This document shows positions 15,683-30,781 of a stretch of DNA of 34,377 bases, one piece after another. Position numbers and translations under genes: made by a program. The notes beneath the pieces were generated by a model, which worked only from the letters and a program-made list of their open reading frames with translations, was not told where the DNA came from and ran no database searches. The stretch's first letter is position 1, and every line of letters starts with the position of its first letter. This DNA comes from Candidatus Omnitrophota bacterium (lineage in GTDB: Bacteria; Omnitrophota; Gorgyraeia; Gygaellales; Profunditerraquicolaceae): the NCBI GenBank assembly GCA_029561735.1, contig JAKQWZ010000036.1, positions 1-34,377 on the forward strand, read 5' to 3'.

Positions 15683-15751
15683 GGTTTTCTTGCCTGCCTC
15701 TGTAGGCAGGGCCTGTCATTGGGCATCCTGCGCGCGCATGCCACACGCGAA
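15683..15751. repeat. 69-bp exact repeat, half copy of the palindromic element at 27857-27987
   Basis: ggttttcttgcctgcctctgtaggcagggcctgtcattgggcatcctgcgcgcgcatgccacacgcgaa is identical to 27857-27925. Confidence 0.9.
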
Positions 15752-27796: not shown

Positions 27797-27856
27797 ATAA
27801 ATATTATACCACAGGTAGTCCTTATTTTGCTGTAGGCTTATTAAGCATTAGGCTTG

Positions 27857-27987
27857 GGTTTTCTTGCCTGCCTCTGTAGGCAGGGCCTGTCATTGGGCAT
27901 CCTGCGCGCGCATGCCACACGCGAAAGGTGTGGCATATGCTGCGTGCTCGGATTGCCCAATGCCACCCGCCCAAGGGCAAGAAAACC
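27857..27987. repeat. Nested palindromic element 1 (full copy)
   Basis: ggttttcttgcc/gggcaagaaaacc, cattgggca/tgcccaatg and atgccacac/gtgtggcat nested inverted repeats; left 69 bp identical to 15683-15751. Confidence 0.85.
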
Positions 27988-28000
27988 AAATATATTCATA

Positions 28001-28253
28001 TATAAATATCCTTGAAAGGGGTTTCGAGCGAATGTCGATTTTAGGCAAAGCAGCTCGAGCATTTTTGGGAATGCCGGTGGAGCCCCCCCCGCCAAAGGCG
28101 GAGGGGCGACAACACCGGCACGGCGAAGGTGTCTGAGCAGCATTTGTTAGAACAAATGCTGCGAGTTCTGCAGCCGCCAAAAATGCGAGAGACCTTTGCC
28201 GGCCCAAAGGGCAAAATCGACCTGAGCGAGAAACCCCTGAAAGGATATTTATA
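28001..28253. repeat. Multi-branched palindromic element 2
   Basis: Outer tataaatatcc...ggatatttata and gtcgatttt/aaaatcgac; ggcaaag/ctttgcc; gcatttttgg/ccaaaaatgc; tgccggtg/caccggca; gcagcatttgt/acaaatgctgc. Confidence 0.8.
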
Positions 28254-28261
28254 GAATAAAA

Positions 28262-30781
<2,520 letters not shown>

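Follow-up and report, generated by a model that had tools for sequence, protein, structure and literature searches.

A Multibranched Palindromic Element behind atpC Belongs to a Dispersed, Probably Mobile Family in Omnitrophota

Introduction

Immediately behind the gene atpC in the genome of a Candidatus Omnitrophota bacterium lies a segment of some 250 bases that is self-complementary almost from end to end, which raises the question of whether such a structure is a terminator, a large structured RNA, a mobile palindrome, or a combination of these. The window analyzed here is a stretch of 34,377 nucleotides (contig JAKQWZ010000036.1 of assembly GCA_029561735.1), in which the segment, hereafter element A, is present as a full copy at 28001–28253 on the plus strand (253 bases, in the orientation of the family alignment), forming a near-closed, multibranched palindrome. 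The atpC gene lies on the minus strand at 28262–28528, with its stop 8 nt from the start of this copy, and its assignment, and with it the originally predicted position of the palindrome, is borne out by the Pfam domain ATP-synt_DE_N.

Architecture of the Window Copy

The features of the window that are relevant to this analysis are as follows.

15683–15751, plus strand: half copy of element B (69 nt, 100% identity)
27853–27990, plus strand: element B, a second palindrome (fold z −7.5; copies in own genome)
28001–28025, plus strand: left outer arm, which differs from the usual family version AAATGAATCTGNCGNNTTTTC
28026–28034, plus strand: conserved GAGCGAATG, internal loop beside the outer stem (near-invariant alignment columns)
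28034–28042 with 28213–28221, plus strand: helix gtcgatttt / aaaatcgac (helix 3; fold and covariation)
28044–28050 with 28194–28200, plus strand: helix ggcaaag / ctttgcc (helix 4; double changes in 6 of 7 pairs)
28059–28068 with 28177–28187, plus strand: helix gcatttttgg (fold and covariation)
28072–28120, plus strand: branch 1, tgccggtg (28072–28079) / caccggca (28113–28120), helix 8, ending in a variable GC-rich hairpin
28137–28162, plus strand: branch 2, hairpin gcagcatttgt/acaaatgctgc (28137–28148 with 28151–28162), helices 14 and 15
28202–28212, plus strand: branch 3, small variable hairpin gcccaaagggc (fold and copy comparison)
28223–28230, plus strand: conserved TGAGCGAG, opposite side of the internal loop (near-invariant alignment columns)
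28230–28253, plus strand: right outer arm, complement of the left outer arm at 28001–28025
28262–28528, minus strand: atpC, F1 epsilon subunit (Pfam PF02823, E 4e-20)

The outer arms and every stem named in the original prediction are found in place by both sequence and folding, and the hairpin at 28202–28212 adds one stem to those named there. A fragment in another contig of the same genome (C43) has the same left outer arm as the window copy. Folded as RNA, the plus strand of 28001–28253 has a minimum free energy of −136.5 kcal mol–1, compared to a shuffle mean of −75.9 (sd 5.0), corresponding to a z-score of −12.2, and folding of the minus strand as DNA gives a z-score of −11.8. On either strand, 0 of 200 shuffles were as stable as the window copy. 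The open reading frames called in this segment had been regarded as byproducts of its symmetry, with which we agree, since core length is evenly distributed modulo 3 (27, 20, and 24 of 71 copies); protein coding by element A is thereby ruled out.

We also note that the internal loop, 28026–28034 with 28223–28230, may be capable of a kink-turn-like arrangement, with tandem sheared G-A pairs and a variable-length bulge. The half copy of element B, in turn, stops near the apex of the central hairpin, as if copying had ended at the tip.

Copies and Distribution of the Family

The genome from which the window derives (1.2 Mb, 82% complete, 95 contigs) contains three near-full copies of A, including that in the window, plus a fragment, and the two other near-full copies are 81–83% identical to the window copy, which itself scores 219.8 bits with the family covariance model R1. 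Elements of this family are roughly 200–260 bp in size. Within the same bacterial family they occur in 57 of 108 genomes, representing 42 of 60 genera, and a covariance model built on 36 copies detects them in 72 of 384 genomes sampled across the phylum, all in one class. Matches range from 0 to 9 per genome across 14 mostly well-assembled genomes, and these counts are likely low, as several copies in other genomes lie at contig ends. A 21-base exact family signature has 46 database matches among the genomes of 84,980 species, all labeled Candidatus Omnitrophota. IMG/VR viral contigs, phages, and plasmids gave no match, which rules out a phage, plasmid, or viral origin as judged from those collections, and no Rfam family scored above its gathering threshold (best 23 bits, compared to a cutoff of 60), which rules out a known RNA family. 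Judging from these sequence matches, the A family is restricted to the phylum Omnitrophota as far as tested, and it is absent from both Rfam and the literature searched.

This distribution also bears on the most immediate reading of the locus, namely that A is an elaborate intrinsic terminator or 3′ stabilizer private to the atpC operon, as its position directly behind atpC and its very stable stems would allow. However, no GC stem with a direct T run is found at the outer stem, the one such match being weak, internal, and on the minus strand, and the region holds two terminator-like sites compared to 1.2 expected. Furthermore, nothing similar lies behind atpC in the 12 other genomes in which this gene is readable, and A is found also behind folD, malQ, topA, and other genes. 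We therefore consider this explanation highly improbable, with a termination role being possible at this one atpC locus. Vertical inheritance of the atpC copy can likewise be rejected on the basis of the same 12 genomes, although none of them provides an exact empty site for the window copy.

Conservation of the Fold and the Level at Which It Acts

An RNAalifold consensus of 36 copies contains 53 pairs, with double changes in 32 of them. Among 81 aligned matches, in an alignment that is model-fitted and thus leans toward structure (although slid controls drop to about 38–48% paired), 97.3% of the cells pair, and double changes are found in 43 of the 53 pairs, compared to 25.2 in shuffles and 12–20 in slid-partner controls. 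The tip hairpins at three positions vary in both sequence and length between copies, yet remain paired, and the outer stem changes quickly, usually with compensation, enclosing a purine-rich internal loop, GAGCGAATG / TGAGCGAG, the two unpaired segments of which are nearly invariant. The fold of A is thus kept by compensatory change across a real family, and homologs with covariation support the structure more strongly than does the folding of a single sequence.

Where selection acts on the RNA, a stem can accommodate G-U pairs on one strand. Isolated mismatches in Watson–Crick helices, counted with G-U forbidden in the folding, amount to 17 G-T compared to 18 A-C; the model-fitted alignment, in which G-U is permitted, shows an excess, 97 G-U compared to 30 A-C, although a single doubtful pair supplies 46 of the 97, and a tRNA control gives 5 and 0 for the same mismatch classes from only six genes, too few to lean on. 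The stems of A are almost purely Watson–Crick, with no clear strand bias in G-U. A point against action as DNA is that G-A mismatches abound on just one of the strands (92 compared to 6 C-T), as would fit a motif in RNA and equally one in single-stranded DNA; the strand carrying them is mostly antisense to the neighboring genes. Double changes with few G-U intermediates are what would be expected from hairpin-templated DNA correction, or from selection for a folded single DNA strand. From the missing G-U bias, we infer that the fold acts at the level of DNA, unlike a selected RNA; that it does so as single-stranded or cruciform DNA together with an enzyme in trans is a more tentative proposal, which we put forward as one possibility.

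Were A instead a functional structured RNA family, either a cis-acting 3′-UTR element or a small RNA, with the RNA fold being selected and dispersal being secondary, this would account for the very strong covariation, for the conserved purine-rich segments left unpaired, for G-A mismatches confined to one strand, for the frequent placement behind stop codons, and for copies in presumably transcribed operons such as folD–metF. It would account less well for the patchy presence of A, with empty sites even among related species, for an unbiased mismatch count with no excess of G-U over A-C, for the antisense orientation of the strand with the G-A motif, or for the number of promoter-like sites adjoining A, which does not exceed chance. 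Taking also the absence of an Rfam match into account, we regard selection as an RNA as unlikely. The part of the original prediction that allowed for a large structured RNA, or for both an RNA and a mobile palindrome, thus holds insofar as the operon copies are presumably transcribed, and finds no backing in strand bias, promoters, or Rfam. Cotranscribed copies would nevertheless also fold as RNA: the upstream mRNA would carry the folded reverse complement in its 3′ region, with possible effects on its processing or stability, a role that is plausible by analogy with ERIC (PMC2267715).

Insertion and Turnover

In genome G093, A′ and C′ take up about 500 bp behind folD, ahead of metF, whereas G094, the closest sampled relative of G093, and about ten other congeners have a short gap only; some further congeners have other palindromic elements at this spot. 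Similarly, A is present between malQ and ttcA in G093 and absent in G094, and is present between topA and xerD in G095 and absent in G094. In G095, a TGA within the arm of A (AATGAACC) now seems to terminate topA. Filled and empty sites in related genomes indicate that A inserts; the empty genomes could in principle have lost it, but gain is favored by how short their gaps are and by how widely such genomes are spread. No clear target-site duplication is shared by the three filled/empty pairs. We consider it very likely that A is a real family that inserts, and the proposal of a nonautonomous mobile palindrome is supported by multicopy dispersal, by identical cores at unrelated sites, and by these filled and empty orthologous sites.

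In both G093 and G048, cores at different loci are identical over 177–186 nt, although within these pairs up to 6 of the 24 nt of the left arm are different. Likewise, G062 contains four short copies of A with similar 48-nt cores (2–5 differences) and different, compensated arms, such that the arms appear to change faster than the cores. Where copies follow the same gene in different genera (folD, malQ, and slipin), they are not close neighbors in a tree with few well-supported branches, suggesting independent insertion events or conversion instead of plain inheritance.

A number of individual copies are of interest in their own right. Two near-identical copies with similar flanks in G313 (L324 and L325) have the core inverted, which suggests in-place inversion through the arms. 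The genome of the window also contains a bare hairpin, TAAATATCCCTGAAAGGATATTTA (C30:14069–14093; L015, about 1070–1094), that resembles the window copy's outer arms fused directly, with no core between them, and, with a weak E-value, is possibly a deletion remnant of A. Finally, an extra peptide (SFPPQEGGAGEIVSRDRGVLSERSERRRGACPPSGR) in a ttcA-like gene of G093 (L146, 3219–4109) resembles an in-frame palindromic insertion.

Placement and Partner Elements

By ORF-based gene calls, 34 copies of A have both neighboring genes on their minus strand, compared to 10 with both on the plus strand, and mixed arrangements are rare; this orientation bias (34:10) would have p 0.0004 if the copies were independent. 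The minus-strand neighbor often stops within about 20 nt of A, and the adjoining genes are mostly housekeeping genes. The order in the window (atpC stop, A′, B′, next gene) matches this usual placement.

Of 58 copies of A, 26 are accompanied within 120 nt by another structured element, C (GCGGGTCCTGTCTTG ... GCCAAGCCACCCGC), in all cases upstream of A and in the same orientation as determined with a C profile, in agreement with an iterated C scan save for one odd overlapping exception in L108. Element B sits 10 nt to the left of A in the window, on the side where C sits in other copies, and the arms of B and C are alike by eye (GGnCCTGTC.TTGGG / CCCAA.GCCACCCGCC), which would suggest that B is a divergent member of C. 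As the C profile did not detect B in the window, we treat this kinship as a lead only. Separately, four loci (L191, L206, L209, and L322) have a further palindromic element, D, with a common AATGAATCTG end, and D-like sequence is also found behind folD in G079, G098, and G099.

At four further loci (L122, L136, L102, and L160), C lies 537–922 bp upstream of A, and the interval contains just one accessory-type ORF, which at one locus encodes an NYN-domain protein; such an arrangement, with C and A 0.5–0.9 kb apart, could be a loaded cassette. Together with the consistent upstream position and shared orientation of C, these loci are compatible with A and C being the two ends, or recombination sites, of a mobile gene cassette that is mostly empty (with A′ and C′ adjacent) and sometimes carries one accessory gene. 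However, 29 of the 58 copies of A have no C nearby, some copies of C occur without A, and the spaced pairs may simply be two adjacent insertions because both elements favor gene 3′ ends. In addition, the "loaded" slipin–purD locus has further genes outside the pair, and no linked recombinase was found, making a cassette a distinctly unlikely explanation. A broader proposal, in which A and C would be paired, structure-recognized ends of a new class of Omnitrophota mobile unit that moves as folded single-stranded DNA, inserts behind stop codons, can carry single accessory genes, and rewrites its outer stem with compensation as copies spread, is speculative and in our view quite unlikely.

Ends and the Search for a Mobilizing Enzyme

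The arms of A are inverted, and AAATGAATCTGNCG is common among them but is exchanged for compensated variants in copies such as that in the window. The end pattern AATGAATCTGNCG also surrounds quite different interiors, and one copy lacks precisely the inner body. Different interiors within common ends are typical of nonautonomous transposons. As a separate observation, five loci in G018 (L208, L211, L216, L320, and L321) have A-type ends around an unrelated palindrome (AGCGGGTCCTGCCG...CGTCACCCGCT).

We found neither a transposase nor a recombinase inside A or tied to it. A nonexhaustive search of 8 genomes with the exact end pattern identified no widely spaced end pair around a transposase, and partial matches turned out to be near-full, split, or contig-end copies, such that no autonomous version with A ends is found among the exact end matches or partial copies examined. 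Genes for Y1/RAYT transposases are present in 86 of 105 genomes regardless of the presence of A, and none of 20 Y1 loci has A-like flanks, on which basis we reject a RAYT/Y1 transposase as the mobilizer of A. One Y1/RAYT gene (L171) has its own hairpin repeat (AGGGGACGGTTCTATC...), a separate REP-like system unrelated to A.

Proposed Mechanism and Implications

Taking these observations together, the segment behind atpC is probably a dispersed, nonautonomous, MITE-like mobile element, with a fold that would act in DNA. In such a mechanism, an enzyme supplied in trans would place copies into short gaps behind stop codons, recognizing the termini and inner loop of the folded single strand or cruciform, and conversion among copies within a genome may homogenize the cores.

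Element A combines strong covariation with the lack of a clear RNA signature, which helps to tell selection on RNA from maintenance of a palindrome at the DNA level, and it provides a useful caution, since a pipeline scoring covariation would label it a structured RNA. Several families of mobile palindromes occupy the spaces between genes in small Omnitrophota genomes, and the occurrence of at least two of these together in a fixed order makes the search for a mobilizing enzyme concrete.

Comparison with Known Systems

In integron attC sites, structure is conserved over sequence, and recognition involves a folded single strand with unpaired signature bases. By description, A resembles attC in its structure over sequence, its unpaired conserved bases, and its site right behind a stop codon, but it is not seen in cassette arrays beside an integrase, and its neighbors are mostly housekeeping genes. 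REP/BIME palindromes are proposed to be mobilized in trans as hairpins by RAYT (Y1) transposases. REPs are 20–40 bp in length, most with GTAG/CGTC tags (PMC3733652); A is far larger and has no RAYT association, and thus falls outside REP/RAYT systems.

We set A apart from ERIC and bcr1 on the basis of their published descriptions. The ERIC/YPAL elements of enterobacteria are imperfect intergenic palindromes of about 127–170 bp, and Yersinia ERIC folds as RNA and thereby regulates the expression of neighboring genes (PMC2267715). A is likewise an intergenic imperfect palindrome; however, ERIC is one long stem-loop, whereas A is multibranched, with freely swapped tip hairpins, and belongs to another phylum. 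The bcr1 repeats of the Bacillus cereus group are dispersed, clade-restricted, noncoding, foldable, mobile-like elements of 100–400 bp (PMC6542083), listed with conserved structure (PMC2267715). A is similar in these properties, but the mobility of bcr1 is linked to a TTTAT motif, which is not seen with A, and A differs further in having several branches and outer arms that change with compensation; a sequence relation across phyla is not expected.

Bacterial MITEs, finally, are nonautonomous and ORF-less, with inverted ends, common ends around different interiors, and patchy insertion (PMC2229807). The ends of A are not a constant repeat, its filled/empty pairs show no clear common target-site duplication, and no autonomous parent was found in the search described above. 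A shares with MITEs its inverted arms, its common ends around different interiors, its patchy insertion, its multicopy, dispersed occurrence, and its lack of coding capacity.
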